From the NCBI RefSeq assembly GCF_011045115.1, contig NZ_JAAKZG010000014.1, positions 1-64,000 on the forward strand: a stretch of DNA of 64,000 nt. The letters are read 5' to 3'. Shown here in pieces: positions 4,396 through 21,946 of this stretch. Every line of letters begins with the position of its first letter. Within the stretch, counting starts at the first letter, position 1. Made by a program: the position numbers and the translations under genes. A model generated the notes under the pieces. It did no database searches and was not told the DNA's origin. It saw nothing but the letters and a program-made list of their open reading frames with translations. This stretch comes from Mesorhizobium zhangyense. Its GTDB lineage: Bacteria > Pseudomonadota > Alphaproteobacteria > Rhizobiales > Rhizobiaceae.

Positions 4396-4700
4396 TACTT
4401 CGCCCCCGCCTTGGCTGCACCCGCGCCCGGCGCGGCGCGCACCGATTTGATGTCATGGGTCAGCGTGTTGCGCTCGATGACCAGCCAGGAGCGGCAGCCG
4501 CCGCCGTGATACCAGTATTCGCTCATCTCGCCGGCAAAATTGTCGCGCAGATAGACATAGTCGTAGAAGGCCTCGGCTTCGCCGGGCGCACCCGCGCCGC
4601 CGTCGATGGCGACCATCGCCGGGCGCTTCGGCTTGGCGTCACCGAGATAGGTGAATTCGCCGTTCTCGCGTTCGCCACAAAATGGGCATGCAATGCGCAT
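4395..4700 (-). CDS. mgdB: N-methylglutamate dehydrogenase subunit B (sarcosine oxidase delta-like)
   Basis: Encodes 101 aa. It begins MRIACPFCGER, the SoxD-type zinc-finger start with Cys5 and Cys8, and has further Cys/His residues in a YHGGGC segment. SoxD-like delta subunits are small zinc-binding structural subunits of the heterotetramer. The start at 4700 was chosen over an in-frame start at 4739 because the conserved CPFC start follows it directly and the longer form would run into mgdA. It lies 13 nt after mgdA and its TAA overlaps the mgdC ATG by one base. Confidence 0.9.
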   Translation of the reverse strand: MRIACPFCGERENGEFTYLGDAKPKRPAMVAIDGGAGAPGEAEAFYDYVYLRDNFAGEMSEYWYHGGGCRSWLVIERNTLTHDIKSVRAAPGAGAAKAGAK

Positions 4701-4713
4701 TCCTGATCCGCCT

Positions 4714-5967
4714 TCAGTGCAAATTCGGTTGGGCGCCAACGCCCTTTTCGTCGATCATCGCGCCCCGCTGGAAGCGGTCGAGCCGGAAGCGCTTTGCTTC
4801 CTCGTGCGGCGTGTCGGTGGCGATCAGATGGGCGAAGACGAGGCCCGAGCCCGGCGTCGCCTTGAAGCCGCCATAGCACCAGCCGGCATTGAGATAGAGC
4901 CCGTCGATGGGCGTTCTGTCGATGATCGGCGTTCCGTCCATCGACATGTCCATGATGCCGCCCCACTGGCGCAGCAGGCGCACGCGGCCGATCATCGGCA
5001 TCAGCGCCATGCCGCCTTCGCAGACGTCCTCCATCACCGGCATGTTGCCGCGCTGGGCGTAGGAATTGTAGCCGTCGATGTCGCCGCCGAAGACCAGACC
5101 GCCCTTGTCCGATTGGCTGACATAGAAGTGGCCGGCACCGAATGTGAGGACACCGGGAATGAGCGGCTTGATCGCTTCGGAGACGAAGGCCTGCAGCACA
5201 TGGCTTTCGATCGGCAGCCGCATGCCGGCCATCGCCGCGACGCGGGACGAATTGCCCGCCACCGCCATGCCGACCTTGCCGGCACCGATCGCGCCGCGCG
5301 AAGTCTCGACGCCGGTCACCTTGCCGTTCTGGTCGCGGGTGAAGCCGGTGACCTCGCAGTTCTGGATGATGTCGACGCCGAGCCGGTCGCCGGCATGGGC
5401 ATAGCCCCACACCACCGCGTCATGGCGCGCCGTGCCGGCGCGGCGTTGCAGCAGCCCGCCCTGGATGGGGAAGCGCGCATTGTCGAAATTCAGGAACGGC
5501 ATCATCTTGCGGACCTGCGCCTGGTCGAGCAATTCGGCATCGATGCCGTTAATGCGCATGACATTGCCGCGCCGTGCATAGGCGTCGCGCTGCGCATCGG
5601 AGTGGTAGAGATTGACGATGCCGCGCTGGCTCATCATCGTGTTGTAGTTGAGGTCCTGCTCCATCCGCTCCCAGAGCTTCATCGAAAGCTCATAGAAGCC
5701 GGTATTGCCGGGCAGCATGTAGTTGGAGCGCACGATAGTGGTGTTGCGGCCGGCATTGCCGGAGCCGATCCAGCCCTTCTCCAGCACCGCGACATTGCGG
5801 ATGCCGTATTTGTGGGCAAGGAAATAGGCCGTCGCCAGCCCATGCCCGCCACCGCCTATGATGACCACATCGTAGTGGCTTTTCGGCTGGGCATCGCGCC
5901 AGGTACGGGGCCAGTTCTTGTGTCCTGAAAGGGCTGCCCGCGCGAGAGAGAAGATCGAATATTTCAT
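4714..5967 (-). CDS. mgdA: N-methylglutamate dehydrogenase subunit A (sarcosine oxidase beta-like)
   Basis: Encodes 417 aa of the D-amino-acid-oxidase/SoxB fold. The Rossmann motif VVIIGGGGHG lies at 34-43, followed by LEKG and a NTTIVRSNY segment typical of SoxB subunits, in which FMN is covalently held. This subunit performs the oxidation of the N-methyl amino acid, here inferred to be N-methylglutamate. The ATG at 5967 is preceded by GGAAA; a TTG one codon earlier is less likely. It is 36 nt downstream of gmaS and 13 nt upstream of mgdB in the same run. Confidence 0.92.
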   Translation of the reverse strand: MKYSIFSLARAALSGHKNWPRTWRDAQPKSHYDVVIIGGGGHGLATAYFLAHKYGIRNVAVLEKGWIGSGNAGRNTTIVRSNYMLPGNTGFYELSMKLWERMEQDLNYNTMMSQRGIVNLYHSDAQRDAYARRGNVMRINGIDAELLDQAQVRKMMPFLNFDNARFPIQGGLLQRRAGTARHDAVVWGYAHAGDRLGVDIIQNCEVTGFTRDQNGKVTGVETSRGAIGAGKVGMAVAGNSSRVAAMAGMRLPIESHVLQAFVSEAIKPLIPGVLTFGAGHFYVSQSDKGGLVFGGDIDGYNSYAQRGNMPVMEDVCEGGMALMPMIGRVRLLRQWGGIMDMSMDGTPIIDRTPIDGLYLNAGWCYGGFKATPGSGLVFAHLIATDTPHEEAKRFRLDRFQRGAMIDEKGVGAQPNLH

Positions 5968-6003
5968 CAAGGGTTTCCGCCGCGCAGGCCTGCTATTTCC
6001 GAA

Positions 6004-7347
6004 TTACACGTCGAGAGTGTTTTCGCGTTCCCACTGCGTGAAGTGGGAGGCGTAGGCATTCCATTCCTGATGCTTGAGCTTCAGGAAAGCACTGGAGAAT
6101 TCCTCGCCCATCGCCGCTTTCAGCCCGCTGTCCTTGTCGTATTCGCGCAGGGCGTCGAGCAGGTTCAGCGGCAGCTTCGGACCGTTGGTGACGGTGTGGC
6201 CGTCCTTGTACATGTCGATATCGCTGCGCTCGCCCGGATCGGCTTTCGTACGAATGCCATCAAGACCGGCGGCGATGATGACAGCCTGCATCAGATAGGG
6301 ATTTGCCGCACCGTCCGGCAGGCGAAGCTCGAAGCGGCCGGGGCCGGGAACGCGCACCATGTGGGTGCGGTTGTTGCCGGTCCAGGTCACAGTGTTGGGT
6401 GCCCAGGTCGCGCCCGAAACCGTGCGCGGCGCATTGATGCGCTTGTAGGAATTGACCGTCGGATTGGTAATCGCGGCAAGCGCGGAAGCATGCTTCATGA
6501 TGCCGCCGAGGAAGTGCCTGCCCTTGGCCGAGAGGCCGAGCTCGGCATTCTTGTCGGCGAAGGCGTTGCTCTTGCCGTCGAGGTCCCACACCGAGATATG
6601 GGCATGGCAGCCATTGCCGGTCAGGCCCTGGAACGGCTTGGGCATGAAGGTGGCTCGCAGGCCATGCTTCTCGGCAATCGACTTGGTCATGAACTTGAAG
6701 AAAGAGTGCTTGTCGGCGGTGTTGAGCACATCGTCGAAGGCCCAGTTCATCTCGAACTGGCCGTTCGCATCCTCATGATCGTTCTGGTAGGGCTGCCAGC
6801 CGAGTTCCAGCATGGCGTCGCAAATCTCGGCGATGACGTCGTAGCGGCGCATCACCGCCTGCTGGTCGTAGCAGGATTTCGTCGCCGTATCGTATTCGTC
6901 GGAAATCTTGTCGCCGCCCGGCGTGGTCAGGAAGAATTCGGGCTCGACGCCGGTCTTGACGCGCATGCCCTCTTCCGCAGCCTCCGCCACCAGTCGCTTC
7001 AGCGTGTTGCGCGGCGCCTGGGCGACGCTCTTGCCTTCCATGACGCAGTCGGAGGCAAGCCACGCCACATCCCGCTTCCACGGCAGCTGGATGACCGAAG
7101 ACGGGTCCGGCACGGCCAGCATGTCGGGATGCGCCGGCGTCAGGTCGAGCCAGGTGGCAAAGCCGGCAAAGCCCGCACCTTCCTTCTGCATGTCCGAGAT
7201 CGCCTGCGCCGGAACCAGCTTGGCGCGTTGGCCGCCAAACAGGTCCGTGTAGGAAATCATGAAATATTTGACGTTATTCGCCTTTGCGAATTCTGCGAGA
7301 TCGTTTGCCACAGCAGTTCCCCGTTTGCTTTCGAATGCCGTTCCCAT
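6004..7347 (-). CDS. gmaS: gamma-glutamylmethylamide synthetase (glutamine synthetase type III-like)
   Basis: Encodes 447 aa of the glutamine synthetase superfamily. It has EPEFFL near 137, NDHEDANGQFEMNW near 193, GNGCHAHIS near 249 and a late SGATWAPNT/GRFELRLPDG region, which are the GS ATP- and metal-binding segments. In the NMG pathway GmaS joins glutamate and methylamine with ATP to give gamma-glutamylmethylamide, the substrate of the MgsABC synthase. It lies between mgsC and mgdA, exactly as in known NMG operons, which separates it from a housekeeping glutamine synthetase or the related rhizobial GlnT. GAGAGGA precedes the ATG at a usable distance. Confidence 0.93.
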   Translation of the reverse strand: MGTAFESKRGTAVANDLAEFAKANNVKYFMISYTDLFGGQRAKLVPAQAISDMQKEGAGFAGFATWLDLTPAHPDMLAVPDPSSVIQLPWKRDVAWLASDCVMEGKSVAQAPRNTLKRLVAEAAEEGMRVKTGVEPEFFLTTPGGDKISDEYDTATKSCYDQQAVMRRYDVIAEICDAMLELGWQPYQNDHEDANGQFEMNWAFDDVLNTADKHSFFKFMTKSIAEKHGLRATFMPKPFQGLTGNGCHAHISVWDLDGKSNAFADKNAELGLSAKGRHFLGGIMKHASALAAITNPTVNSYKRINAPRTVSGATWAPNTVTWTGNNRTHMVRVPGPGRFELRLPDGAANPYLMQAVIIAAGLDGIRTKADPGERSDIDMYKDGHTVTNGPKLPLNLLDALREYDKDSGLKAAMGEEFSSAFLKLKHQEWNAYASHFTQWERENTLDV

Positions 7348-7376: not shown

Positions 7377-8705
7377 TCAGAAACCGTTCTTTCCCGGTAT
7401 CCAGCTGGTTCCCGCCAGCGGCACCTGTGCCATTGCAGCGGCTTCGATTGTCAGTGCGCAGAGGTCCTCCGGCTCGAGATTGTGGAGATGATTTTTGCCG
7501 CAGGCGCGCGCGATGGTCTGTGCCTCAAGCGTCATCACTTTAAGATAATTCGCCAATCGCCTTCCCGCGGCAACCGGGTCGACACGTTTCATCAGTTCCG
7601 GATCCTGCGTGGTAATGCCTGCCGGGTCTTTTCCCTCATGCCAGTCGTCATAGGCACCAGCGGTCGTGCCGAGCGCCTGGTATTCGGCCTCCCAGCGCGG
7701 GTCGTTGTCACCGAGCGCGACAAGGGCGGCGGTCCCGATCGACACCGCATCGGCACCCAGCGCCATCGCCTTGGCGACATCGGCACCGTTGCGGATGCCA
7801 CCGGAGACGATGAGCTGGACCTTGCGGTGCATGCCGAGATCCTGCAACGCCTGAACGGCGGGCCGGATGCAGGCGAGCGTCGGCTGGCCGACATTCTCGA
7901 TGAACACTTCCTGCGTGGCGGCAGTGCCGCCCTGCATGCCGTCGAGCACCACCACATCGGCACCCGCTTTCACCGCAAGGGCCGTGTCGTAATAGGGGCG
8001 CGCACCGCCGACCTTCACATAGATCGGCTTTTCCCAGTCGGTGATTTCGCGGATTTCGAGGATCTTGATTTCGAGATCGTCCGGGCCGGTCCAGTCGGGA
8101 TGACGGCAGGCCGAACGCTGATCGATGCCCTTGGGCAGCGTGCGCATTTCGGCGACGCGGTCGGAAATCTTCTGGCCAAGCAGCATGCCGCCGCCGCCGG
8201 GCTTTGCGCCCTGCCCGACCACGATCTCGATCGCGTCGGCGCGGCGCAGGTCGCGCGGGTTCATGCCGTAGCGCGACGGCAGATACTGGTAGACCAGCGT
8301 CTGCGAATGGCCGCGCTCTTCCTCGGTCATGCCGCCGTCGCCGGTGGTGGTTGAAGTGCCTGAAAGCGAGGCACCGCGGCCGAGCGCTTCCTTGGCCGGA
8401 CCCGATAGCGAGCCGAAGCTCATGCCGGCTATGGTGATCGGGATTTTCAGTTCGATCGGCTTCTTGGCATGGCGCGCGCCGAGCACGACGCTGGTCTCGC
8501 ACTTTTCGCGATAACCTTCGAGCGGGTAGCGCGAGATCGACGCGCCGAGAAACAGCAGGTCGTCGAAATGCGGAAGCTTGCGCTTCGCGCCGGCGCCGCG
8601 AATGTCATAGATGCCGGTGGCTGCGGCGCGGCGGATTTCCGACAGCGTATATTCGTCGAATGTCGCGGAGTATCGGGGCTTTGTCGGCGGGTTCTGATAG
8701 GTCAT
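7377..8705 (-). CDS. mgsC: N-methylglutamate synthase subunit C, FMN glutamate synthase-like
   Basis: Encodes 442 aa matching the FMN-binding synthase domain of glutamate synthase (GlxD/MgsC type). Visible landmarks are GMSFGSLSGPAKEALG near 114-128, GQGAKPGGGGMLLGQK near 174, VVLDGMQGGTAA near 262 and SGGIRNGADVAKAMALGADAV near 316. In the MgsABC complex it transfers the methylamine moiety onto 2-oxoglutarate to make N-methylglutamate. It follows mgsB by 12 nt and precedes gmaS by 29 nt. The orthologous glxD reading used in older rhizobial annotation describes the same family. Confidence 0.93.
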   Translation of the reverse strand: MTYQNPPTKPRYSATFDEYTLSEIRRAAATGIYDIRGAGAKRKLPHFDDLLFLGASISRYPLEGYREKCETSVVLGARHAKKPIELKIPITIAGMSFGSLSGPAKEALGRGASLSGTSTTTGDGGMTEEERGHSQTLVYQYLPSRYGMNPRDLRRADAIEIVVGQGAKPGGGGMLLGQKISDRVAEMRTLPKGIDQRSACRHPDWTGPDDLEIKILEIREITDWEKPIYVKVGGARPYYDTALAVKAGADVVVLDGMQGGTAATQEVFIENVGQPTLACIRPAVQALQDLGMHRKVQLIVSGGIRNGADVAKAMALGADAVSIGTAALVALGDNDPRWEAEYQALGTTAGAYDDWHEGKDPAGITTQDPELMKRVDPVAAGRRLANYLKVMTLEAQTIARACGKNHLHNLEPEDLCALTIEAAAMAQVPLAGTSWIPGKNGF

Positions 8706-8717
8706 TCTGATCTTGCC

Positions 8718-9404
8718 TCAATACGCGTCGGCATTGTCGATGTTGAAATTGTAGAGCGTCCGGGCCGAGCCGTAGCGCGTGAACTCCTCGGGCTTGACGT
8801 CCTTGACGCCGGCGCGGTCGAGCAAATCCCTAAGCTTGGCGATATGCTCGGGCCGCATCTCCTTCTTGATGCAGTCGGCACCCAGGCTCTTGACGTTACC
8901 GCGCACGAAAAGCTTCGCCTCGTAGATGGAATCGCCCAGCGCATCGCCGGCATCGCCCAGCACCACGAGATGGCCCGACTGCGCCATGAAGGCGGACATA
9001 TGGCCGATATTGCCGTGGACGACGATGTCGATGCCCTTCATCGAGATGCCGCAGCGCGACGAGGCGTTGCCCTCGATCACCAGCAGCCCGCCCTTGCCGG
9101 TGGCGCCGGCATACTGGCTGGCGTCGCCCTTCACGACAATCGAGCCCGACATCATGTTCTCGCCGACGCCGGGGCCGGCCGAGCCGTGCACCGTGATAGT
9201 GGCTTCGCTGTTCATGCCGCCGCAATAGTAGCCGACGCTGCCGCGCACATCGACGCTGATCGGCGCATCGACACCCGCCGCGACCGCGTGGCTGCCCTTG
9301 GGATTGAGCACTTCCCAGGCCGTCTCGTTGGAGCCGTTCTGGACGTTGTGAAGCGCCTGGTTGAGTTCACGCAGCGTTGACTTTGCAAGGTCGAAGACCT
9401 GCAT
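8718..9404 (-). CDS. mgsB: N-methylglutamate synthase subunit B, GXGXG-domain protein
   Basis: Encodes 228 aa made largely of the GXGXG right-handed beta-helix found at the C-terminus of glutamate synthase (GlxC/MgsB type). Repeated Gly-rich turns such as GSAGPGVGENMMSG, YAGATGKGG, GNIGHMSAF and LGDAGDALG span about residues 60-165. The start at 9404 is an ATG with AAGGAG upstream; the longer upstream reading is out-of-frame shadow of mgsA. It works with MgsA (amidotransferase) and MgsC (FMN synthase) and lies between them. Confidence 0.92.
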   Translation of the reverse strand: MQVFDLAKSTLRELNQALHNVQNGSNETAWEVLNPKGSHAVAAGVDAPISVDVRGSVGYYCGGMNSEATITVHGSAGPGVGENMMSGSIVVKGDASQYAGATGKGGLLVIEGNASSRCGISMKGIDIVVHGNIGHMSAFMAQSGHLVVLGDAGDALGDSIYEAKLFVRGNVKSLGADCIKKEMRPEHIAKLRDLLDRAGVKDVKPEEFTRYGSARTLYNFNIDNADAY

Positions 9405-9450
9405 GCCGGAGCTCCTTTCCGCTACATTGACGACATCGTGTTTCACGGTT

Positions 9451-10347
9451 TCAGTGCTCCCAGAAATAAACGGTGGAGGGTTCCGGCTCCCAGACCTTGG
9501 CGCCGTCGATGCCGGGCAGCTTGGCCAATGCGCGGTATTCGGAACCGAAGGCGACATACTGGTCGGTTTCGGCCAGAACCGCAGGCTTGCAGGCGATCGG
9601 ATCGCGCACCACGCCGAAGCCGTTCTTGGTGCCGACGACGAAGGTGAAGAAGCCATCGAGATCGCTGAGGCTCGATTCCAGCGCCTGGCCAAGATCCTGC
9701 CCGTTGGAAATCTTGTGCGACAGGTAGGCGGCTGCGACTTCGGTGTCGTTCTCAGTCTCGAACGTCATGCCCTCGCGCTTCAGTTCGCGCCGCACATTGT
9801 TGTGGTTGGACAGCGATCCGTTGTGCACGAGGCACTGGTCCGGCCCGGTCGAGAACGGATGCGCACCCATGGTGGTGACAGCGGATTCTGTCGCCATGCG
9901 GGTGTGGCCGATGCCATGCGTGCCGCTCATCTTCGAGACTTCGAAGCGTTCCGCCACCTTCTCGGGCAGGCCGACTTCCTTGTAGATCTCGATCGTGTCG
10001 CCCATGCCCATAACGCGCGCATCCGGGCGCAGTTCGGCAATGGCGTCGCGCGCCGCTTCGAGCTTGTTGCGCGGCACGTCGAGCACGGCATGGGTGGACT
10101 TCACCAGCATCGTCACTGACGCGCCAATTTTCTTGCCGAGCTCGGCTTCCAGCCCGGCAAAATCGCGCGCCGGCTGCTGCGACTGGATCGTCAGCTTGCC
10201 GTGATCTTTCTGCGACGCGCCATAGATAGCGATGCCGGCGCTGTCCGGCCCGCGATCGGTCAACAGAACCAGCATTTCCGACAGCATGGCGCCCAGCTGA
10301 GGCTCCAGCGATTTATCCTTAAGAAACAGTCCAACAATGCCACACAT
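9451..10347 (-). CDS. mgsA: N-methylglutamate synthase subunit A, class II glutamine amidotransferase
   Basis: Encodes 298 aa beginning MCGIVGLF, so Cys2 becomes the N-terminal nucleophile of a class II (Ntn-type) amidotransferase. Further family segments are DRGPDSAG near 33, GHTRMATES near 147 and LVHNGSLSNHNN near 169. In the NMG pathway it releases methylamine from gamma-glutamylmethylamide for MgsB and MgsC. An AAGGAGG ribosome-binding site precedes the ATG. It is the first enzyme gene of the mgs-gmaS-mgd run and is separated from the upstream small gene by 157 nt, room for an internal promoter. Confidence 0.93.
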   Translation of the reverse strand: MCGIVGLFLKDKSLEPQLGAMLSEMLVLLTDRGPDSAGIAIYGASQKDHGKLTIQSQQPARDFAGLEAELGKKIGASVTMLVKSTHAVLDVPRNKLEAARDAIAELRPDARVMGMGDTIEIYKEVGLPEKVAERFEVSKMSGTHGIGHTRMATESAVTTMGAHPFSTGPDQCLVHNGSLSNHNNVRRELKREGMTFETENDTEVAAAYLSHKISNGQDLGQALESSLSDLDGFFTFVVGTKNGFGVVRDPIACKPAVLAETDQYVAFGSEYRALAKLPGIDGAKVWEPEPSTVYFWEH

Positions 10348-10504: not shown

Positions 10505-10813
10505 TCACGCCGCTGGCGGCGTGTTTTCCTGCCTTCGCGCAAAGCGCCATTTCTCGTGCTGGATCCGCGCGATCTTGTAGGCGTCGAGCACGCAGAAACC
10601 ATAGATCAGAATGGCTCCGGAATGGCGCGCGAAAAACGAGCCGTCCGGCAGCAGCCGGATGCCGACCCAGCCGAATACCGCCATGAAGAACAGGAACATC
10701 AGCGCGCGCTGCGCATAGCCGAGCAGCAGATGTCCCGCGCCCGGCACCAGTATGGAGGCAGCCAGGATCGCCAGCGGCTTGAATGGCTCTTTCGCCTCGG
10801 CAACCATCGTCAC
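10505..10813 (-). CDS. Small multi-spanning membrane protein of unknown function
   Basis: Encodes 102 aa. Two or three hydrophobic segments are visible (about 13-30, 36-52 and 64-80), with a GAGHLLLGY turn and a closing AYKIAR segment that recalls TM2/DUF5683-type small membrane proteins. The resemblance is by eye and weak. Its start overlaps the stop of the upstream 225-aa gene by 4 bp, so the two are probably translated together. It is placed between the permease and the N-methylglutamate synthase genes, which suggests a link to amine uptake or membrane sensing, but no catalytic motif is seen. Confidence 0.7.
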   Translation of the reverse strand: MTMVAEAKEPFKPLAILAASILVPGAGHLLLGYAQRALMFLFFMAVFGWVGIRLLPDGSFFARHSGAILIYGFCVLDAYKIARIQHEKWRFARRQENTPPAA

Positions 10814-11487
10814 GCTGCGACCTCCATAGGCTGGCGCAGATTGTAGACCACGGCCACCATCCGGTTGAGCACCGCCTCGATAAGGTCAGGATTGATGACG
10901 ATGTCGCCGAACTCCGCCTGCCGAAAGACGCCATATTGCGCGCGGTTCGCCTCCGCGATCTGGATCACGATGCGCACGCCCTTGGGCGAAACCAGGAATT
11001 CCTTCATGCGCGGATTGGCAAACAGCGGCAGCGCCGGCGCAACCGCGCCCGGCGGTGGCATATTGTGCGGATCGTCGCTGCGCAGCAGGCCGTCCTCCGG
11101 CCATCCGGCAGGCGACGCCACGATATGCGGCAGGTGGTCGAAGTTCGAAAAGCTCGTCGGCCCGGCAGGCCGCATCATGAAATCGAACGTGCCGCCAACG
11201 CTAGTGGCGATCGGGATCGTCACCTGAAGCCACAGGCTCGGCAGCTTGCGCACCGCAAGCGTGTCCACCACCGGGCGAAGCTGCACCGGCAGGCCACGGA
11301 ACTGCCCTTCCAAGACGGGATGGTCCGGTGCCTGAAGTTCACGCACGACCGGGTTCTCAAGCAACTCTTTCACCGTGCTGAACAGAAGCCCTTGCCGCTC
11401 AGCCACAGTCTCACGGCTGCGCTGGAACATACGGACGAGCTGCCACGCCACAAGCGCGAAAAGCAGGATGCCGAGTGCGGTTTTCAC
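10810..11487 (-). CDS. Membrane-anchored protein of unknown function
   Basis: Encodes 225 aa. The first 20 residues form one hydrophobic helix followed by a basic stretch (RMFQRSRE), so it should be a single-pass anchor. The rest is soluble, with a Pro-rich loop near 140-155 (HNMPPPGAVAPALP) and mixed alpha/beta character. I recognise no family. It lies 72 nt after the APC permease and overlaps the next small membrane gene by 4 bp, so it belongs to the same transcription run as the N-methylglutamate genes. The location is compatible with a transport-accessory protein; this is inference. Confidence 0.65.
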   Translation of the reverse strand: MKTALGILLFALVAWQLVRMFQRSRETVAERQGLLFSTVKELLENPVVRELQAPDHPVLEGQFRGLPVQLRPVVDTLAVRKLPSLWLQVTIPIATSVGGTFDFMMRPAGPTSFSNFDHLPHIVASPAGWPEDGLLRSDDPHNMPPPGAVAPALPLFANPRMKEFLVSPKGVRIVIQIAEANRAQYGVFRQAEFGDIVINPDLIEAVLNRMVAVVYNLRQPMEVAA

Positions 11488-11559
11488 GATGATCGCTCCG
11501 CTTGCCTTGCGATGTTTCGGCGGCCCGCACCTATCGCGTGGGCCGCCGGTTTCAGGTCG

Positions 11560-12969
11560 TCAGTAGCCGATCGGCTTCGGCCACGGCATGGTGAACTGGT
11601 CGCCGCGCCGGACATATTTGTAGCGGTAGAAGTGGAACCAGATCGACACGACGATATAGAACAGCGTCATGGCGATGAGCTGTGAACCGTATCCGAGGAA
11701 CACCGCGAAGTAGGTGATGACGCAGATCGACAGAAGCGCGATCGCCGGCATCGGGTGGAACGGATGCGTATATCCGCGGCGGATCGAACCCAGCGGCCAT
11801 TTCCTGCGGAACATCATGATGTTGATCGACATGAAGGTGTAGCCGAGCAGGCCCGACAGGATCGAGAAGGTGATCGCCTGGTTCAAATCGGCGATGAAGG
11901 CGAAGGCCAGCGCGATCGGCAGCAGGAACAGGATCGACCGGTAAGGAGTCCGGTATTTCGGATGCACCGCCGAGAACCATGTCGGCAGGTAACGGTCGCG
12001 GCCGAGCGAAAACCAGGCGCGTGCCGCATCGTTGATGCAGCCATTAGCCGAAGCGACAGCCGCCAGCACCGTGCCCCAGAACAGCAGCGTCTCGAGGAAG
12101 CCCGAGCCCGTTGCCCTCGCCGCGTCGAACAGCGGGAAGAAGGTGAAGCCGAGATACTCCCACGGCAGCAGCGAAGCGCAGACATACCAGGTCATGGCGG
12201 CGCCGATCAGCAGCGTGATCATGCCCGCCATCGTGCCATAGGGCAGCGAACGCGCCGGGGAGCGCACTTCCTCTGCGGCCTGCGTCGTGCCCTCGATGCC
12301 GAGATAGAACCAGATGCCGAAATGGAAGGCCGCAAGAACGCCGATCCAGCCATAGGGCAGCGCGTTTTCCGGCGTGATCAGGTCCCCGAGCTTCAGCACC
12401 GTGCCCTGACTCCATGGCTGGACCGAGAAGAACAGGATGATGATGGCGACATAGGCGATCGCGGTGATGACGAAGTTGACGTTGAGCGTCATCAGCACGC
12501 CGCGATAGTTGAGCCAGGCAAGCACGACGATGGTCAGCACGACGAAAGCGTGCCGTTCCAGCCCTTCGGTTCCGGCCACCGTCACGATCAGGTCGCCAAC
12601 GAGGATAGCGTCGGAAACCTCGAGCATCGTATAGGCAAAGACGAGATAGAGCGCGACATTGAAAGCCATCAACGGGCCGACGATATGCTTGGCCTGCGCA
12701 TACTGGCCGCCGGCGGCGGCGACCGTGGAGGTCACTTCGGAATCGATCATCGCGACCGAAGTGTAGAGCAGCCCGATGAACCAGCAGACGATCAGCGCGG
12801 CCAGCGAGCCGCCCTTGTCGACGGCGAAGTTCCAGCCGGTATATTCGCCGACCAGCACGATGCCGACGCCCAATGCCCAGACATGGGCCGGGCCGAGCAC
12901 GCGCAGCAGCGAAACCCGCTGGCCGGGCGCCACCGTCGACGGTGAGGTAGTGATTGCAGCGTCAGTCAT
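11560..12969 (-). CDS. APC-superfamily amine/amino acid permease, candidate methylamine importer
   Basis: Encodes 469 aa with about twelve hydrophobic segments. The first shows GPAHVWALGVGIVLVGEYTGWN, the glycine-rich TM1 pattern of APC permeases, here most like ethanolamine permeases. NFVITAIAYVAIIILF and MITLLIGAAMTWYV are other clear membrane helices. The gene follows three small membrane-protein genes and precedes the NMG pathway genes on the same strand, so its substrate is plausibly a short amine such as methylamine or a product such as N-methylglutamate. Ethanolamine or an amino acid remain alternatives. It begins 9 nt after the 53-aa gene. Confidence 0.8.
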   Translation of the reverse strand: MTDAAITTSPSTVAPGQRVSLLRVLGPAHVWALGVGIVLVGEYTGWNFAVDKGGSLAALIVCWFIGLLYTSVAMIDSEVTSTVAAAGGQYAQAKHIVGPLMAFNVALYLVFAYTMLEVSDAILVGDLIVTVAGTEGLERHAFVVLTIVVLAWLNYRGVLMTLNVNFVITAIAYVAIIILFFSVQPWSQGTVLKLGDLITPENALPYGWIGVLAAFHFGIWFYLGIEGTTQAAEEVRSPARSLPYGTMAGMITLLIGAAMTWYVCASLLPWEYLGFTFFPLFDAARATGSGFLETLLFWGTVLAAVASANGCINDAARAWFSLGRDRYLPTWFSAVHPKYRTPYRSILFLLPIALAFAFIADLNQAITFSILSGLLGYTFMSINIMMFRRKWPLGSIRRGYTHPFHPMPAIALLSICVITYFAVFLGYGSQLIAMTLFYIVVSIWFHFYRYKYVRRGDQFTMPWPKPIGY

Positions 12970-12978
12970 CGAACGCCC

Positions 12979-13140
12979 TCAGAGCTTGTGTTTTTCGGTG
13001 GCTGCCTCGATCTCGCCTTCGCGCGAGGAGGTCAGCACGTCTTCCGAATAGGTCGTGTCGGTCTTGAACCAGTCGAAGAGCATCCAGGCGGCGAGAACCG
13101 CCGAAAGCGCCCAGGCGACATAGGAAAGTGTGAACCACAT
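12979..13140 (-). CDS. 53-aa single-pass membrane protein next to the permease
   Basis: A short reading frame, ATG at 13140 to TGA at 12979, encodes 53 aa. Residues 1-23 (MWFTLSYVAWALSAVLAAWMLF) form one hydrophobic helix; the tail from about 25 is hydrophilic and acidic (DTTYSEDVLTSSREGEIEAA). It starts 10 nt after the preceding small gene ends and ends 9 nt before the permease start, and the frame shows GC-rich third positions, so it is probably real. Its size and arrangement resemble small accessory subunits of transporters. It belongs to no family I know. Confidence 0.65.
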   Translation of the reverse strand: MWFTLSYVAWALSAVLAAWMLFDWFKTDTTYSEDVLTSSREGEIEAATEKHKL

Positions 13141-13150
13141 CGTTTCGCTC

Positions 13151-13531
13151 CTATTTCTTGTCGCCGAACTTTTCGTCGATCACTTCGCGGTATTCCTTGT
13201 CGGAGGCGCGGAAGAGAAAGATGAAATAGCCGACGACCACGACGACCATGACGAGTAGCGTGGTGATGTCCCAGGTGTAGTGGAACTTGTTCTGGATGAT
13301 GTCGTGGGCGGTCGTCGGGTCGTAACCGAGCTTCTCCCAGAATCCGACCATGGTCGGGTTTTGCCCCAGGCTTTCCCAGGTCGGGTTCTCGATCTTGTCG
13401 ATGGCCTTGGAAACACCGGCAAGGCCGAGTTTCAGCGGCAGCCACAGCGCCACGAAGATAGCGACAACGATGAAGGCGATGTCGATGACCTGCATCACTT
13501 TCGGTTGTTCGGGTGGTATATATTTCGGCAT
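13151..13531 (-). CDS. Two-pass small membrane protein upstream of the permease
   Basis: Encodes 126 aa beginning MPKYIPPEQPK. The ATG at 13531 was preferred because GGGAGGACAAAGA precedes it; an in-frame start five codons earlier would overlap the ribosome-binding site. Two hydrophobic segments, about 16-35 and 86-107 (TLLVMVVVVVGYFIFLF), flank a roughly 50-residue loop containing NPTWESLGQNPTMVGFW. The tail is charged (SDKEYREVIDEKFGDKK). No named family is recognised. Its place between two other small membrane genes and the permease suggests a common membrane complex, which is inference. Confidence 0.7.
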   Translation of the reverse strand: MPKYIPPEQPKVMQVIDIAFIVVAIFVALWLPLKLGLAGVSKAIDKIENPTWESLGQNPTMVGFWEKLGYDPTTAHDIIQNKFHYTWDITTLLVMVVVVVGYFIFLFRASDKEYREVIDEKFGDKK

Positions 13532-13560
13532 TCTTTGTCCTCCCAAAACCTGCCAGAGCG

Positions 13561-13851
13561 CTAGAGATTCTTCTCCCGCTTCGCCGCGTCCAGATGCTGG
13601 ATATCCAGCCCGTAGATGAAGTGCTTGTCTTCGGCGTAGTGCTTGACCATCGCCCGGATCGCGGCGGTGTTGAAAATGAGCACCGCGGCAGCAGCAACGA
13701 CCACCGCAACCCTGATCCCGCTATTGGGGATGTAGGGCCAGGTCATGAACAGGACGAAGAGCAGGGTTATCCAGAGAAGTACTACGAGAAGCCACGCACC
13801 GCGCACGTCAGAACGGTACATGGCCTCAATCCGCTGATTGAGGTCCGACAT
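13561..13851 (-). CDS. Two-pass small membrane protein, first gene of the methylamine run
   Basis: Encodes 96 aa. Hydrophobic segments at about 20-40 (WLLVVLLWITLLFVLFMTW) and 48-66 are separated by a short PYIPNSG turn; both ends are charged. GGGAGAG lies immediately upstream of the ATG at 13851. It is the first gene of the minus-strand run that continues through the permease to the N-methylglutamate genes and is divergent from dmmD. A TATAAT box lies 60 nt upstream. No family was recognised. Confidence 0.7.
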   Translation of the reverse strand: MSDLNQRIEAMYRSDVRGAWLLVVLLWITLLFVLFMTWPYIPNSGIRVAVVVAAAAVLIFNTAAIRAMVKHYAEDKHFIYGLDIQHLDAAKREKNL

Positions 13852-14215
13852 TTCTCTCCCTTTCGACAGCGCTCGTATTGGCCTGGCGGAGCGCCGCTTT
13901 CCCTGTGGGAATTATACTGCCAGGCAACATTTTTGTTTGCGAAGAAAATACCCGCGCAACCCCGATGTCAAGGCGTATTTACGCGGCGTAAACCACAACG
14001 CACCGGAATATCGTGGAGCGAATCCAGGTCCTTTTTCTAGCGAAACCTGCGTCCAAGGACTTGTCACCGGCAATCCCTGATTTTGCCTGATAATGAAATT
14101 TTTTGCACTACAGTGTTGCGTGTCCGGAAATTTGAGGCACTATGGCCGGCAATCAAAGTTGCAGCATTTCGCGCGGGGGCGAAATCAAGCAAAGTGCAAA
14201 TGGGAGATGTATCAG
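13852..14215. promoter_or_regulatory. Divergent promoter region between the permease-mgs run and dmmDABC
   Basis: This 364-nt intergenic region holds no convincing gene. On the minus strand a perfect TATAAT lies at 13916-13911, 60 nt before the first small membrane gene. The -35 area is poor and is covered by GCAACATTTTTGTTTGC (13924-13940), an imperfect inverted repeat that could hold a regulator. A 5-bp-arm palindrome GCGTA-TT-TACGC sits at 13973-13984. Toward dmmD an inverted repeat CACT-AC-AGTG lies at 14106-14115, inside TTGCACTACAGTGTTGC, about 100 nt upstream of the start. Binding by the XRE-cupin regulator is inference. Confidence 0.55.
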
Positions 14216-15349
14216 ATGACGGCATCCTGGAGATTCTCGACCCTTGCGGATCGCCATCGCGCCCTTGGCTCCAAGCTCGAAGACTGGAGCGGCATGGGCA
14301 CCGCCTGGACCTACGACAAGGACGCTGACGAGGAATATGTCGCCATCCGCACCAAGGCCGGGCTTATGGATGTCTCGGGCCTGAAGAAGGTCCACGTCAA
14401 CGGCCCTCACGCCTCCCATCTGCTCGATCTCGCCACCACGCGCGATGTCGAGAAGGTCTATCCGGGCAAGTCGGTCTATGCCTGCATGCTCAACGAGGCG
14501 GGAAAATTCACCGACGACTGCATCCTCTACCGCATGGGGCCGAACTCATGGATGGTCGTGCATGGTTCGGGCACCGGCCATGAGGAATTGCAGCGCGCCG
14601 CCATGGGCCGCGACGTGTCGCTGCGCTTCGACGACAATCTCCACGACCTGTCGCTGCAGGGTCCGCTTGCCGTCGACTTTCTCGCCAAGCATGTGCCGGG
14701 CATTCGCGACCTGAATTACTTCCATCACATGCAGACGCGCCTGTTCGGCTTCCCGGTGATGATTTCGCGCACCGGCTACACCGGCGAGCGCGGCTATGAA
14801 ATCTTCTGTCGCGGCCAGGACGCCGGCACGATCTGGGACACGATCCTCGCAGAAGGCAAGGATATGGGCATCATCCCCTGCCGCTTCACCACGCTCGACA
14901 TGCTGCGCGTCGAGAGCTACCTGCTCTTCTACCCCTACGACAATTCCCAGAAGTATCCGTTCGAGAACGAAGGCCCCGGCGACACGCTGTGGGAACTCGG
15001 CCTCGACTTCACCGTCAGCCCGGGCAAGACCGGCTTCCGCGGTGCTGAGGAGCACTACCGCCTGAAAGGCAAGGAGCGCTTCAAGATTTACGGCGTGCTG
15101 CTGGAAGGCAAGGAACCGGCCGACGAAGGCGCGCCGATCTTCAAGGACGGCAAGCAGGTCGGCGTCGTCACCTGCGCCATGTATTCGCCGCTGGTCAATA
15201 AATCGATGGGCATCGCCCGCATGCCGGTCGATTGCGCGGTCGCCGGCACGCCGCTTGAAATCCACAACGCCGGCGGCAAGATCAAGGCGACAGCGCAACC
15301 GCTGCCCTTCGACGATCCCAAGAAGCTGAAGCGCACCGCAAAGGGTTGA
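14216..15349 (+). CDS. dmmD: Dimethylamine monooxygenase-associated GcvT-like protein DmmD
   Basis: Encodes 377 aa of the aminomethyltransferase (GcvT) family, with the segments MDVSGLKKVHVNGP near 57, RTGYTGERGYEIFC near 186 and LGLDFTVSPGKTGF near 260. It is the tetrahydrofolate-binding partner that heads dmmDABC clusters in dimethylamine-degrading bacteria and probably captures the released formaldehyde as methylene-THF. The ATG at 14216 was chosen since GGGAG at 14202-14206 is well spaced; an ATG at 14207 abuts that site. It is 7 nt upstream of dmmA. A glycine-cleavage T protein is unlikely as no gcvH or gcvP is near. Confidence 0.88.
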   Translation: MTASWRFSTLADRHRALGSKLEDWSGMGTAWTYDKDADEEYVAIRTKAGLMDVSGLKKVHVNGPHASHLLDLATTRDVEKVYPGKSVYACMLNEAGKFTDDCILYRMGPNSWMVVHGSGTGHEELQRAAMGRDVSLRFDDNLHDLSLQGPLAVDFLAKHVPGIRDLNYFHHMQTRLFGFPVMISRTGYTGERGYEIFCRGQDAGTIWDTILAEGKDMGIIPCRFTTLDMLRVESYLLFYPYDNSQKYPFENEGPGDTLWELGLDFTVSPGKTGFRGAEEHYRLKGKERFKIYGVLLEGKEPADEGAPIFKDGKQVGVVTCAMYSPLVNKSMGIARMPVDCAVAGTPLEIHNAGGKIKATAQPLPFDDPKKLKRTAKG

Positions 15350-15356
15350 GCCGGGC

Positions 15357-15956
15357 ATGACGGCAAAGACCATATTGAGCCGACCGGTCTATGGCACGCT
15401 CTCGCCGCAACCGGGAAAGCACCATCTCTTCATCGCCGACGCCGAGGGCGCAGCGGCGATCCTCGACATGGCCAATAGCGCGCCCGCCGGCTTCTTCGCC
15501 GATGCCCACATCATGTTCGTTCCCGGCGCCACCGGCACGAAATATGTCGAGCCGTTGAAGAAGCTCCAGCCGGCGCAATTCTATGAAGGCCCCTCGATCG
15601 CCAGCGCCCTGCCGCGCCTGCGCCAGACGCTGGCGACGGCGCATATGGGCCTGCGCGTCTACCTCTCCGGCACCGAAGGGCTGATCGGCCAGGCCATGCA
15701 GGCGGCCCTTGAAGCCGGCATTGATCACACCTCGATCCAGACCGAGCAGCGCGGCTCGCTGGCGCGGCGGGTGCAGTGCGTCCACTGCAAGGGCATCACC
15801 GAGAATGTGACGACCCAGCCCGCGACCTGCTCGCATTGCGGCCTGCTTCTTCTGGTACGCGATCATTATTCGCGCCGCATCGCCGCCTTCCAGGGGGTGT
15901 GCATCAATGCGGAAGACCCGACCGAGAACCCTCCAAAAGAGGAGATTTTCCGTTGA
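15357..15956 (+). CDS. dmmA: Dimethylamine monooxygenase subunit DmmA
   Basis: Encodes 199 aa. The C-terminal part holds a four-cysteine zinc-ribbon-like motif, CVHC near 140 and CSHC near 159, separated by about 15 residues. A gene of this kind lies directly before the reductase gene in described dmmDABC clusters. The protein is required with DmmB and DmmC for the oxidative demethylation of dimethylamine to methylamine and formaldehyde. The stop codon overlaps the TTG start of dmmB. The identification rests mainly on the cysteine motif, the size and the gene order. Confidence 0.87.
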   Translation: MTAKTILSRPVYGTLSPQPGKHHLFIADAEGAAAILDMANSAPAGFFADAHIMFVPGATGTKYVEPLKKLQPAQFYEGPSIASALPRLRQTLATAHMGLRVYLSGTEGLIGQAMQAALEAGIDHTSIQTEQRGSLARRVQCVHCKGITENVTTQPATCSHCGLLLLVRDHYSRRIAAFQGVCINAEDPTENPPKEEIFR

Positions 15957-16918
15957 GCGCCGGAACGAGCAAGATCGACGTCACCGTCACCGATATCGTC
16001 CCCGTTAACGAACTGGTCAAGCGCTTCCATTTCCGGCGCACGGACGGCGCCATCCTGCCGACCTTTTCCGGCGGCGCGCATGTCGTGGTGGAAATGCGCG
16101 ACGACGACCGCACCCGCCTCAACCCCTATTCGCTGATGAGTTCGCCGCTCGACACGACCGACTACACGATCAGCGTGCGGCGCGACGATGTCGGGCGCGG
16201 CGGTTCGCTGTTCATGCATAATCGGGTCAAGCCCGGTCAGCGCATGGTCATCAGCAATCCGGTCAACCTGTTCTCGCTCGATCTCAGGGCCAGGAAGCAT
16301 CTGATGATCGCCGGCGGTATCGGCATCACGCCCTTCATGGCGCAGACCTCGCAGCTTGCCGGCGAAGGCGGCAATTTCGAACTGCACTACACCTGCCGCA
16401 GCGAAGCGCTCGGCACCTATGCCGACGTGCTGCAGGCCCGCTATGGCAGGCGCATCCATCTCTACCACGACGACCGCGACGAAAAGCTGCCGCTCGAAAA
16501 GCTGTTGTCCTCGCAGCCGCTCGGCACGCATCTCTACATCTGCGGCCCCGCCGGCATGATCGACTGGGTGCGCCGGACAGCAAGCGAGGCCGGCTGGCCG
16601 AGCGAGACGGTACACTACGAGCATTTCGCAGCACCGCAGCCGGGCAAGCCGTTCGATGTGACGCTCGCCGTCAGCGGCAAGCAGATCCGCGTCGGCGAGC
16701 AGCAGAGCCTGCTCGAAGCCATCGAGGCAGCCGGTGTCGATCCGCCCTATCTCTGCCGCGGCGGCGTCTGCGGCCAGTGCGAAACCAATGTCGTCTCCTA
16801 TGACGGCAAGTTCCTGCACAACGACCATTGGCTGTCGGAAGAAGAACACCGCTCCGGCTGCAAGATCATGCCATGCGTTTCGCGGTTCGAAGGAAAATCC
16901 CTCGTACTTGAACGCTAG
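15953..16918 (+). CDS. dmmB: Dimethylamine monooxygenase reductase subunit DmmB (flavin/2Fe-2S)
   Basis: Encodes about 321 aa of the phthalate-dioxygenase-reductase type. It has an FMN-binding barrel with NPYSLMSSP near 59-67, an NAD-binding part with AGGIGITPFM near 118-127 and YICGPAGM near 197, and a C-terminal plant-type ferredoxin with CRGGVCGQC near 264-272 plus a later Cys. It would pass electrons from NAD(P)H to the haem subunit. The start is a TTG at 15953 overlapping the dmmA stop (TTGA), with GAGGAG 8 nt before it. Fusion of FMN, NAD and 2Fe-2S modules in this order is normal for the family. Confidence 0.92.
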   Translation: MSAGTSKIDVTVTDIVPVNELVKRFHFRRTDGAILPTFSGGAHVVVEMRDDDRTRLNPYSLMSSPLDTTDYTISVRRDDVGRGGSLFMHNRVKPGQRMVISNPVNLFSLDLRARKHLMIAGGIGITPFMAQTSQLAGEGGNFELHYTCRSEALGTYADVLQARYGRRIHLYHDDRDEKLPLEKLLSSQPLGTHLYICGPAGMIDWVRRTASEAGWPSETVHYEHFAAPQPGKPFDVTLAVSGKQIRVGEQQSLLEAIEAAGVDPPYLCRGGVCGQCETNVVSYDGKFLHNDHWLSEEEHRSGCKIMPCVSRFEGKSLVLER

Positions 16919-16935
16919 CTCGAAGGGGAAAGAAA

Positions 16936-17976
16936 ATGGGAATCAATTTCAGGAAGGAAACGTTTCGCGACGATTTCACCTTCAGGAACAGCCCCGAGCA
17001 CATCAGGCGGTTTCCGTTCCCCTTCCATGAAGACGCCTACATGTATGCGGTCAACATCGAGCCGCATGTGCCGGGGCCGAAAGGCAGCGTGCTAGAACAC
17101 GGCATCGATGTCGACGAGCACTACGTCTCGGAGATGCACGACCGGGCGCTGGTGCTGGCGGAAGACCCGCTGCGCTGCCAGTCGCTGCCGCATATGACGC
17201 TGGCCGGCTGGGACCTGCTCGAACTCTTGATGACCTCCAAGGCCGAGAGCTATCCCGAGCATTTCACGCTGAACCGCGATGGCGACAAATGGCACTGGAT
17301 CAACCGGCCGCTCGGCATCGACGACCGTTTCACCTTCGGCGACGTCTCCACCCTGCCCTATGGGCCGATGGAATACATCACCCGCCAGAGCCAGGGCGAT
17401 TTCTGCATCCTCGACCAGCGCGACGGCAACCTCTGGATGGATGCCGGCATCGTCACCACCCAGGCCGACTGGTCGCTCGATTTCGACATCGGCATGAATT
17501 TCTTCGAATGGCACGCCCCGGTGCCGCTGGCCCATGAAAAGGGCATTTTTACCCGCGCGCTGAAATTCCTCACCAACATCCAGCAAGGCGCGCCGGCACG
17601 ACGCCTGAACTGGACGATGACCATCAACCCGCGCCTCGATACCAGCCCTGAGAATTATCACAAATGGGGCACTGACCGCGCGACGGTGACGCCTGAGAAT
17701 GTTGGACAAAAGGTCCATCTTCGCGTCGAGCTGCAAAGCTTCTGGCGGCTGCCGCGCTCCAACGCGCTTGTCTTCCCGATCCGCTGTTATCTGATCAAGA
17801 TGGACGAGCTGGTGACCTCGCCGAAATGGGCGCGCCGCTTCCACCGCGTCCTGCGCGACCTGCCAACCGAGCTTGCCGACTACAAGGGTTTGTCGCGCTA
17901 TCGGCCGACGGTGCTCGAATGGCTGTCGCAATATGACGACGGCGCAGCGACCTCGCCGGGCTTTGGGCCGGATTAA
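16936..17976 (+). CDS. dmmC: Dimethylamine monooxygenase catalytic subunit DmmC (DUF3445 haem N-demethylase)
   Basis: Encodes 346 aa of the haem-dependent oxidative N-demethylase family (DUF3445). Typical segments are FPFPFHEDAYMYAVNIEP near 20-35, LPHMTLAGWDLLELL near 83 and PVPLAHEKG near 195. Family members demethylate dimethylamine with O2 and electrons from the linked reductase. It follows dmmB by 17 nt with a purine-rich GAAGGGGAAAG before the ATG. It is the last gene of the dmm operon and is followed by a pair of hairpins shared with the convergent regulator gene. Confidence 0.92.
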   Translation: MGINFRKETFRDDFTFRNSPEHIRRFPFPFHEDAYMYAVNIEPHVPGPKGSVLEHGIDVDEHYVSEMHDRALVLAEDPLRCQSLPHMTLAGWDLLELLMTSKAESYPEHFTLNRDGDKWHWINRPLGIDDRFTFGDVSTLPYGPMEYITRQSQGDFCILDQRDGNLWMDAGIVTTQADWSLDFDIGMNFFEWHAPVPLAHEKGIFTRALKFLTNIQQGAPARRLNWTMTINPRLDTSPENYHKWGTDRATVTPENVGQKVHLRVELQSFWRLPRSNALVFPIRCYLIKMDELVTSPKWARRFHRVLRDLPTELADYKGLSRYRPTVLEWLSQYDDGAATSPGFGPD

Positions 17977-18188: not shown

Positions 18189-18917
18189 TCAATCGCCGCC
18201 GCTGCCCTGCGGGTAGGAGATGATCGAGAGGTAGCGCATCGGCAGCTTGGTCAGCTCTTCGGGCCCATGCGGCGCATCGGCGTCGAAGAACAGGCTGTCT
18301 CCCGGCGACATCCGGTAGAGATTGTCGCCGTGGCGATACACCACCTCGCCCTCCAGCATGTAGAGGAACTCCATGCCGTCATGCTGGAAGGTCGGAAACA
18401 CGTCCGAATCTTCGCTCAACGTGATCAGATAGGGCTCGACCACGACACCGCTGGTGTTGGAGCCGACATGGCCGAGCAGCGTGTACTGATGGCCGGCGCG
18501 CGTGCCGCGGCGTTCGACATCGACGCCCTCGCCCGCCTTGACGAAGACCGCGTTGCGCTCCTGCTCGAAGCGGCGCAGGAACGCCGTCACCGGCACGCCG
18601 AGCGCCCGCGACAAGGATTGCAGTGTCGTCAGCGATGGCGAGGTGTTGCCGTTCTCGATCTTCGACAGCATGCCGAGCGAGATATTGGTGGCGGTGGCAA
18701 GGTCAGCAACCGTGATGCCCAGCTTCTTACGAAAGGCGCGAACCTCGCGGCCGATCGCCACTTCCAGCACGTTTTCGCGCGTGTCGCGCACCGCATGCGG
18801 GTTCTGCTTCAATGCTGTGTTGTGAAGATCGCCGTCGACCACTTTCAACGGCCGAACCGAAACGCCCGCGGCTGGTTTGCCGACCTGTGTCGTTGCCTGT
18901 GAAGCCTTCTTTGCCAA
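18189..18917 (-). CDS. XRE-family transcriptional regulator with C-terminal cupin domain
   Basis: Encodes about 242 aa. A lambda-repressor-type helix-turn-helix spans about 53-110 (LGITVADLATATNISLGMLS, then SPSLTTLQSLSRALG). A cupin_2 barrel follows at about 165-235 with HDGMEFLYMLEGEV and MSPGDSLFFDADAPH, the usual sensor of a small ligand. The TTG at 18917 has AAGGAGG 5 nt upstream; a GTG at 18944 would add nine residues but would sit inside an inverted repeat. Such regulators commonly control amine or polyamine catabolism. Its convergent position after dmmC makes it a candidate regulator of the methylated-amine genes; ligand and targets are unknown. Confidence 0.85.
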   Translation of the reverse strand: MAKKASQATTQVGKPAAGVSVRPLKVVDGDLHNTALKQNPHAVRDTRENVLEVAIGREVRAFRKKLGITVADLATATNISLGMLSKIENGNTSPSLTTLQSLSRALGVPVTAFLRRFEQERNAVFVKAGEGVDVERRGTRAGHQYTLLGHVGSNTSGVVVEPYLITLSEDSDVFPTFQHDGMEFLYMLEGEVVYRHGDNLYRMSPGDSLFFDADAPHGPEELTKLPMRYLSIISYPQGSGGD

Positions 18918-18939
18918 GCCCGCCTCCTTGCGCTGAGAT

Positions 18940-18954
18940 TTCACTCGTAGTGAA
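18940..18954. promoter_or_regulatory. Inverted repeat TTCACT-CGT-AGTGAA, candidate XRE-cupin operator
   Basis: A perfect 6-bp-arm inverted repeat with a 3-nt spacer lies just upstream of the likely TTG start. Reading the minus strand, TTGCCA and a TAAAAA-like -10, 17 nt apart, precede it, so a bound protein would sit just past the -10 and could autoregulate the gene. The dmm promoter region has a related CACT-AC-AGTG at 14106-14115. Confidence 0.45.
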
Positions 18955-21499: not shown

Positions 21500-21946
21500 T
21501 TAGCTCTCCTCAGAGACAAGCCGCGTCACCGTCTTGCGGATCCGGGATTGCTCGAGAGACGCCTCCAGAAACGCCGAGTTTTTTTCCGGGTCTTCGTCGG
21601 CCATGTCGAAGGCGATGTAATTGACCTCCACCGATGCATGGAGCGCGGTCAGCGTCAGGGCGAAATAGACCGTTGCGCCGGCCGGGCGCAATTCGAGGTC
21701 GAGCACGATGCGCGGATTTTCGGACCAGCCGACATGCGCTTCACCGCCATGGCCGAGGCGCAGTGTACCCGGCATGAAGAAAAGCTCGGCGGCTGAATCG
21801 ACGATGTCTGAAATGCAGCCGAACTGTTCCAGCCTTATGAAGGCGATGTAGTCCGCCACATCGACAAGGCGCAATTCGCTCACCACCTCCTGTATGGAGT
21901 TGGCGACGATGATCTCACGCGTCGATGCATGCGGCTGCCTGATCAT
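21500..21946 (-). CDS. Conserved flagellar-cluster protein of unknown function
   Basis: Encodes 148 aa without a signal peptide or membrane helix. A mixed alpha/beta protein, with LRLVDVADYIAFIRLEQFGCISDIVDSAAELFF near 26-58 as a helical part. Its ATG overlaps the flhB stop (ATGA), so it is expressed with flhB. A gene of similar size lies in the same place between visR and flhB in Sinorhizobium, from memory, and has no named function. A chaperone or assembly role is conjecture. Confidence 0.75.
   Translation of the reverse strand: MIRQPHASTREIIVANSIQEVVSELRLVDVADYIAFIRLEQFGCISDIVDSAAELFFMPGTLRLGHGGEAHVGWSENPRIVLDLELRPAGATVYFALTLTALHASVEVNYIAFDMADEDPEKNSAFLEASLEQSRIRKTVTRLVSEES

Follow-up and report, generated by a model that had tools for sequence, protein, structure and literature searches.

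This study concerns six genes in a 64,000-nucleotide stretch of Mesorhizobium zhangyense DNA (contig NZ_JAAKZG010000014.1, positions 1 to 64,000; hereafter the window), which we discuss as a candidate methylamine uptake module. The genes occupy open frames from 13851 to 10505 on the minus strand, are tightly spaced and co-directional, and run into mgsABC-gmaS-mgdABCD, the genes of the N-methylglutamate (NMG) pathway. They encode a permease of the APC superfamily and five small proteins, three of which (s96, s126 and s53) are encoded ahead of the permease and two (s225 and s102) after it. Both the layout and this gene order had been described in a first-pass annotation of the DNA, and both were confirmed. 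The s102 and s225 genes share 4 bases, and about 160 bases separate the end of the module from the start of mgsA.

Conservation of the six genes and their neighbourhood

A permease scan of genome contigs identified 251 encoding stretches, of which the best 80 were analyzed. Together with four plasmid loci and 16 loci from whole-genome searches (the window included), these made up a set of 100 loci, all retrieved via the permease and with some strains represented twice. In 95 of the 100, a script check identified the full six-gene set in the same order and on the same strand. Four of the incomplete loci (L037, L040, L076 and L127) were truncated by a contig end, and in the fifth (L131) the script had missed the permease, yet a separate look found all six genes. 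The median spacing between adjacent module genes ranged from -4 to 46 bases.

The ratio of non-synonymous to synonymous substitution rates (dN/dS) was estimated from 18 Mesorhizobium-type loci, using 52–153 pairs per gene that were of equal length and had a dS of 0.1–1.5. The median dN/dS was lowest for the permease (0.04), followed by s126 (0.08), s53 (0.13), s96 (0.15), s225 (0.21) and s102 (0.23). The possibility that the small open reading frames (ORFs) are chance frames was ruled out, since they are kept across loci and have low dN/dS values. Together, these data indicated that the six genes form a conserved gene unit. In A. niigataensis MD1 it corresponds to O1Y97_RS25720-25745. The five partners of the permease are annotated as “hypothetical protein” in Paracoccus aminophilus, Aminobacter, Pseudohalocynthiibacter and Pararhizobium.

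Two variants of the unit were observed. In pSymB of Sinorhizobium meliloti Ak57 (L120, 11430-13398) neither s126 nor s53 has its stop, and s53 and the permease lie in one open frame. This apparent fusion is likely a sequence error, as the s126 stop is missing as well and the relative K101 has both stops. In L063 (9318-9824) and L133 (765-1241), s126 carries a loop insert of approximately 30 to 45 residues between two helices.

Table 1. Genes of the module and of its surroundings in the window.
Feature	Position	Strand	Description
s96	13561-13851	-	96 residues, first module gene; two predicted membrane helices; conserved C-terminal motif HYxEDKxFIYGLDI
s126	13151-13531	-	126 residues; helix, loop domain (~40-85), long helix; C-terminal S-x-x-EYREVI-x-EKF
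s53	12979-13140	-	53 residues; one predicted membrane helix; conserved tail TSSREGE(I/L)E
APC-superfamily permease	11560-12969	-	469 residues; presumed translocating subunit
s225	10810-11487	-	225 residues, GTG start; predicted N-terminal membrane helix and alpha/beta soluble domain
s102	10505-10813	-	102 residues, GTG start; about two membrane helices; PGxGHxxxG motif
mgsA	9451-10347	-	N-methylglutamate synthase subunit, named by position and similarity to annotated clusters; downstream neighbour, outside the module proper
mgsB	8718-9407	-	downstream neighbour
mgsC	7377-8705	-	downstream neighbour
gmaS	6004-7347	-	downstream neighbour
mgdABCD	783-5970	-	N-methylglutamate dehydrogenase subunits
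dmmDABC	~14150-17976	+	dimethylamine monooxygenase genes, divergent from s96; dmmD start approximate
XRE-cupin regulator	18189-18944	-	recurs beside many NMG/dmm clusters

The neighbourhood also includes the dmmDABC operon and the XRE-cupin regulator (Table 1), on both of which the first-pass annotation was silent. The dmmDABC assignment is based on matches to the DmmA-like models PF22290/PF22289 and to PF11927 above cut-off, and on NF041259. The listed mgdD ORF (783-1598) extends into the end of mgdC, which places the true mgdD start further in. Shortly past the methylamine cluster, FlhB- and FliG-like proteins begin (21943-25461), which were judged by eye to resemble flagellar components.

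Co-occurrence of the module with the N-methylglutamate pathway

The distribution of the module was determined in a phylum sample of 397 Pseudomonadota genomes (at least 90% completeness requested), with cut-offs of E<=1e-80 for mgsC, E<=1e-60 for the permease clade and E<=0.001 for a profile of s126. The pathway gene mgsC was identified in 54 of the 397 genomes and the permease clade in 15, and the s126 profile matched those same 15 genomes. Because rows from several of these genomes went into the profile, its matches there are partly a given, and what it adds is that it had no match in the remaining 382. The module genomes span eight genera and six family labels, and all 15 of them have mgsC, at 69–100% identity (Fisher p about 1.5e-14, relatedness not corrected). 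The link to methylamine catabolism that had been claimed for these genes thus survived testing.

In the best 80 of the 251 scan stretches, mgs genes were present within the locus in 69 cases and not nearby in 11. A whole-genome search for mgsC, which took in 14 genomes with L074, L070 and L011 as comparisons, identified an NMG-type mgsC elsewhere in the genome for 10 of these 11, at 86–92% identity. One of the 10 is a contig-edge fragment, and another is in two pieces, one of which has a stop. Five of the 11 loci had ORFs listed, and in these the neighbours of the module look like housekeeping genes by eye. In the eleventh genome, G064, xre, gmaS and mgdA stand close together (L210, C43) with no mgsABC match between them, perhaps reflecting a shortened methylamine route or an assembly gap.

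Two further samples were also examined. The permease was found in six genomes of a class sample of 385, and five of the six have an NMG-type mgsC (G000 and G081, and G608, G698 and G768 at 82% identity). In a sample of 61 relatives, the permease clade occurred in three, namely G000, G001 (gmaS present) and G037 (mgsC present). Based on co-occurrence, the module appears to follow the NMG pathway. The case that had been set beforehand as speaking against this, a module without the pathway, was absent from the samples apart from one exception (G523) and one genome with a partial pathway (G064), both of which are weighed below.

Two side observations concern the genes around the module and mgsC. 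Homogentisate genes lie near the module in Aminobacter paAMD1 (hmgA and also hppD; L118, 17010-20595) and in Pseudohalocynthiibacter pRR4-35_6 (hmgA; L119, 22476-23837). In addition, a second mgsC-like protein, of 51–52% identity, is encoded in addition to the NMG-type one in genomes G081, G608, G698, G768, G061 and G063.

The permease, its partners and linked Amt genes

The permease belongs to the APC superfamily, as it scored 102.9 bits against PF00324 (cut-off 24.6) and 84.9 bits against PF13520 (cut-off 27), and it had no match to PF00909 (Amt/Mep/Rh) at E<=1. The best curated model was that of the ethanolamine permease, TIGR00908, at 174.5 bits, which is under its equivalog cut-off of 381.75. 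As this is the nearest curated model, small amines are plausible substrates. The permease has a GE(Y/F)xGWN motif, and the acidic residue of the G-E/D-(Y/F)-x-G-W stretch is common to two annotated ethanolamine permeases; as judged from sequence, this shared residue fits a small cationic amine. The nearest solved relatives are transporters of the CAT/ApcT and AdiC types, and they include GkApcT by way of PDB entry 5oqt, which we take to be that protein.

An import of dimethylamine or trimethylamine N-oxide (TMAO) rather than monomethylamine would fit the divergent orientation of dmmDABC next to the module, which is seen in the window and most Mesorhizobium loci. It would also fit Paraburkholderia caribensis MBA4 (L215, 6964-13488), in which dmmD and a tmoP-like gene come immediately after the module, and the tmoP- or tdm-like genes near the module in L179, L182 and L188. 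In L182 (G208) dmmD-like and tmoP-like genes precede the module, and in L188 (G241) a tmoP-like gene is near it. However, dmmC (E<=1e-10) was found in 20 of 32 module genomes searched and was absent from the other 12. Six of those lacking it are near-complete genomes of three genera (G081, G608, G698 and G768 of one genus, G328 and G464), and all six have mgsC, which favors monomethylamine over dimethylamine as the substrate and makes a service to dimethylamine unlikely.

TMAO has a candidate permease of its own. Methylocella silvestris TmoP is reportedly a TMAO permease of the APC superfamily. A longer APC permease (601 residues in P. aminophilus) is encoded near tmm in that species and near tdm in S. 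meliloti Ak57, and the genome of the window has a separate tmoP-like relative (64%) adjoining tdm and tmm (L190). We rejected the identification of the module permease as TmoP, since the tdm/tmm-linked APC permease is a separate gene and shows no significant similarity to it (BLASTP E 0.18); the tmm-linked permease of P. aminophilus served as a stand-in for the M. silvestris protein in this comparison, and the two may still be distant APC kin. Taken together, we consider import of dimethylamine or TMAO by the module very unlikely, if marginally less so than we would without the tmoP- and tdm-like genes near it.

None of the five small proteins matched a Pfam or NCBIfam model above cut-off. For s53 there was no family match in either collection even at E<=1, and s102 showed a weak resemblance to DUF6677 that was under cut-off. 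The first-pass description of five small membrane proteins does not quite fit s225, which was predicted to have a single N-terminal membrane helix joined to a soluble domain. The AlphaFold2 model of s225 combines an N-terminal helix with an alpha/beta domain and had a predicted local distance difference test score (pLDDT) of 86 and a predicted template modelling score (pTM) of 0.81. Its best Foldseek match was TtfA (6t84; E 1.4e-3, probability 1.00), and there was none at E<=0.001. A second comparison of the model with the same TtfA structure gave a Z of 10.6 and a root-mean-square deviation (rmsd) of 3.2 over 150 aligned residues. The translocon chains 7tm3_4, 6w6l_7 and 9i78_4 gave Z 11.0, 9.4 and 8.8 at rmsd 4.1 to 5.9, after which the matches dropped to Z 6.1. 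These chains are presumably CCDC47, a factor for multipass membrane proteins. The predicted fold of s225 appears to resemble that of TtfA, a likeness that comes without a sequence match, as PDB sequence searches with s126, s96 and s225 returned nothing useful. The model of s126 was uncertain (pTM 0.32).

Alternatively, the permease alone could import methylammonium, with the five small proteins being no subunits and instead forming a linked set for sensing, assembly or quality control, for instance by reporting methylamine status or by helping to insert the permease. The mainly soluble character of s225, its predicted likeness to both TtfA and the translocon chains, and the conserved charged tails of s96, s126 and s53 are consistent with such a set. 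Yet s126, the one partner for which this was tested, was never found without the permease in the 397 Pseudomonadota genomes searched with its profile, whereas a chaperone of general use should turn up elsewhere as well. The set of 100 loci cannot speak to this point, as its retrieval via the permease could not reveal partners lacking one. We regard a sensing or assembly set as possible, if rather unlikely.

The first-pass annotation had stated that known NMG clusters carry ammonium-type transporters. In the gmas-mgsABC-amt operon of Pseudomonas sp. C5pp, amt is described as encoding an inner-membrane methylamine transporter (PMC8292978), and amt is marked as recurrent in marine clusters (PMC7574528). 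Amt genes were present somewhere in all 54 NMG genomes of our phylum sample. For linkage, we used stretches of up to approximately 20 kb around mgsC from 53 genomes and the window, several of which were shorter or off-centre owing to contig ends or the choice of range. Within these stretches, Amt was present in 13 of the 39 NMG genomes without the module and in none of the 15 with it (Fisher p 0.011). Three further module-less genomes have Amt 10 to 12 kb from mgsC, which brings the p value to 0.0023 by genome, while in none of the 15 module genomes did an Amt at E<=1e-30 share a contig with mgsC at a distance of 12 kb or less. By genus, the 12 kb comparison gave 12 of 27 module-less against 0 of 8 module genera (p 0.032). 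In L148 and L162, which belong to one genus, Amt shares the strand of mgsA and sits between that gene and dmmD, which is the slot that the module occupies in the window. The first-pass statement thus applies to some NMG clusters and is not general, and module and linked Amt were never found together in the sample. Based on this pattern, the module seems to take the place of the NMG-linked Amt.

The genome of the window also encodes a second, divergent Amt (L189, G000:C1:613356-614549), which resembles (57–81%) the Amts near mgsC in L137, L149, L152, L164 and L171. There was no other panel match around it.

The permease could instead move a product or by-product of the pathway (such as ammonium, N-methylglutamate or glutamate) or swap methylammonium for ammonium. 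In keeping with this, the pathway releases ammonium (PMC8292978, PMC7574528) and exchangers such as AdiC are among the solved relatives. Against it, Amt, described as a methylamine transporter in one operon of this kind (PMC8292978), holds a comparable place in other NMG clusters, and the nearest curated model is that of the ethanolamine permease, taken as an uptake system. We consider product export or exchange quite improbable.

Proposed role and known systems

We propose, with a probability of roughly 0.6, that the six genes are one unit whose task is to provide GmaS and the NMG pathway with methylammonium (CH3NH3+) by means of an APC permease and five dedicated partners. The permease would be the translocating subunit, and the small proteins would assemble with it, stabilize it or gate it. 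Within such an assembly, s53 would pack against the permease as a single helix, s96, s126 and s102 would be small membrane subunits, and s225 would be a membrane-anchored cytoplasmic partner. The module would then do the job that the NMG-linked Amt does in other methylamine users. We infer the substrate, the direction of transport, the energy coupling and the contact between the small proteins and the permease. The proposal of a permease with five dedicated partners was made because of the TtfA-like model of s225 and the precedent of a single-helix protein on GkApcT, described below, and the partners may be subunits, chaperones or sensors.

Several observations weigh against this proposal. Genome G064 has the module without an NMG-type mgsC, as its closest mgsC relative is only 42% identical, but it carries gmaS (64%) and, alongside, mgdA (72%). 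In G523, a metagenome-assembled genome of 82% completeness, the permease is present but the sole mgsC-like match is a 51% paralogue. On Aminobacter and Pseudohalocynthiibacter plasmids, the catabolic genes nearest to the module are those for homogentisate, with plasmid sequences only for Pseudohalocynthiibacter (the plasmid records L119 and L212-L216 were judged from the plasmid sequence alone). Genes that are tmoP-, tdm- or dmmD-like lie near the module in L179, L182, L188 and L215. The exclusion of Amt is weak when counted by genus in the fetched stretches (10 of 27 against 0 of 8, p 0.073). Amt lies in the gap between dmmD and mgsA, but on the strand opposite to mgsA, in L149 and L164, and beyond gmaS in L137, and the genome of the window holds two Amt genes elsewhere. 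The module is absent from 39 of the 54 NMG genomes, and in 26 of those 39 Amt is likewise missing from the fetched stretches, several of which were short, so that a dedicated linked importer is not needed in general. In addition, co-occurrence would look the same for methylamine import and for a permease that exports ammonium or another product of the pathway, and no transport, expression or complex data for module members were found in the literature.

A stronger version of the proposal is that the APC transporter works only as a six-subunit assembly that exchanges external methylammonium for internal ammonium. We hold this to be unlikely. If it were true, the exchange would couple substrate uptake to the disposal of pathway waste, and the exchanger would be a new APC-superfamily architecture and an independent replacement of Amt.

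Published work on methylated amines has covered parts of these clusters. NMG clusters and tmoP are described in papers on P. aminophilus (PMC4543880) and Aminobacter (PMC8235418), the main text of which, figures and supplements aside, does not discuss the six-gene set. A study of A. niigataensis MD1 reports higher abundance on metformin or dimethylamine than on sucrose for most genes of the methylamine cluster on its plasmid (PMC9699525). No description of the set as a transporter was found in the methylated-amine literature, a weak negative given that figures, supplements and most subscription papers fell outside it. The transporter superfamily is a known one, its architecture with five partners was not found described, and the module probably has a role in methylamine uptake.

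The named importers of the NMG pathway in the literature covered are of the Amt type. Should the module prove to be an importer, a multi-gene device of another kind would be in use in many rhizobia and other bacteria, with consequences for who obtains methylamine in soil, plant and marine settings. If the partners are obligate, the module would offer a simple bacterial model for heteromeric APC transporters, and if the proposed reading holds, five nameless protein families would gain a testable role.

Among known systems, the module permease is close to the amine and amino-acid permeases of the APC superfamily, such as the ethanolamine permease Eat (TIGR00908) and the ApcT/CAT family. It passes the AA_permease models, has the GE/GD-(Y/F)-x-G-W motif with its acidic residue in common with two annotated Eat proteins, and finds its best solved relatives among CAT and ApcT-like chains. 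It is, however, only 27–29% identical to the two Eat proteins and far under the Eat cut-off, and five conserved partner genes accompany its own clade. The NMG-linked Amt of the Pseudomonas sp. C5pp operon resembles the module in its place beside mgsABC-gmaS and in its presumed role, but it is a single gene of another superfamily (PF00909), and Amt and the module were never near the same mgsC in the 54 NMG genomes. TmoP is likewise an APC-type permease in methylated-amine gene clusters, whereas the tdm/tmm-linked permease is a separate gene that is not BLASTP-similar to the one in the module.

For the partners, the closest precedents come from assemblies of a transporter with a small protein. 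A crystal structure shows GkApcT, an APC transporter, with the single-helix protein MgtS bound to it (PMC5803215). In that case MgtS came from the Escherichia coli expression host, and no set of five partners is described in the accessible text, yet GkApcT-MgtS and the eukaryotic heteromeric amino-acid transporters are earlier examples of an APC transporter with a single-helix partner (PMC5803215), the arrangement that we propose for s53. TtfA binds MmpL3 and is required for MmpL3 transport (PMC6593404). The MmpL3-TtfA system differs in its transporter superfamily and cargo, and s225 had no sequence match in the PDB search, but both TtfA and s225 consist of an N-terminal helix and a further domain.

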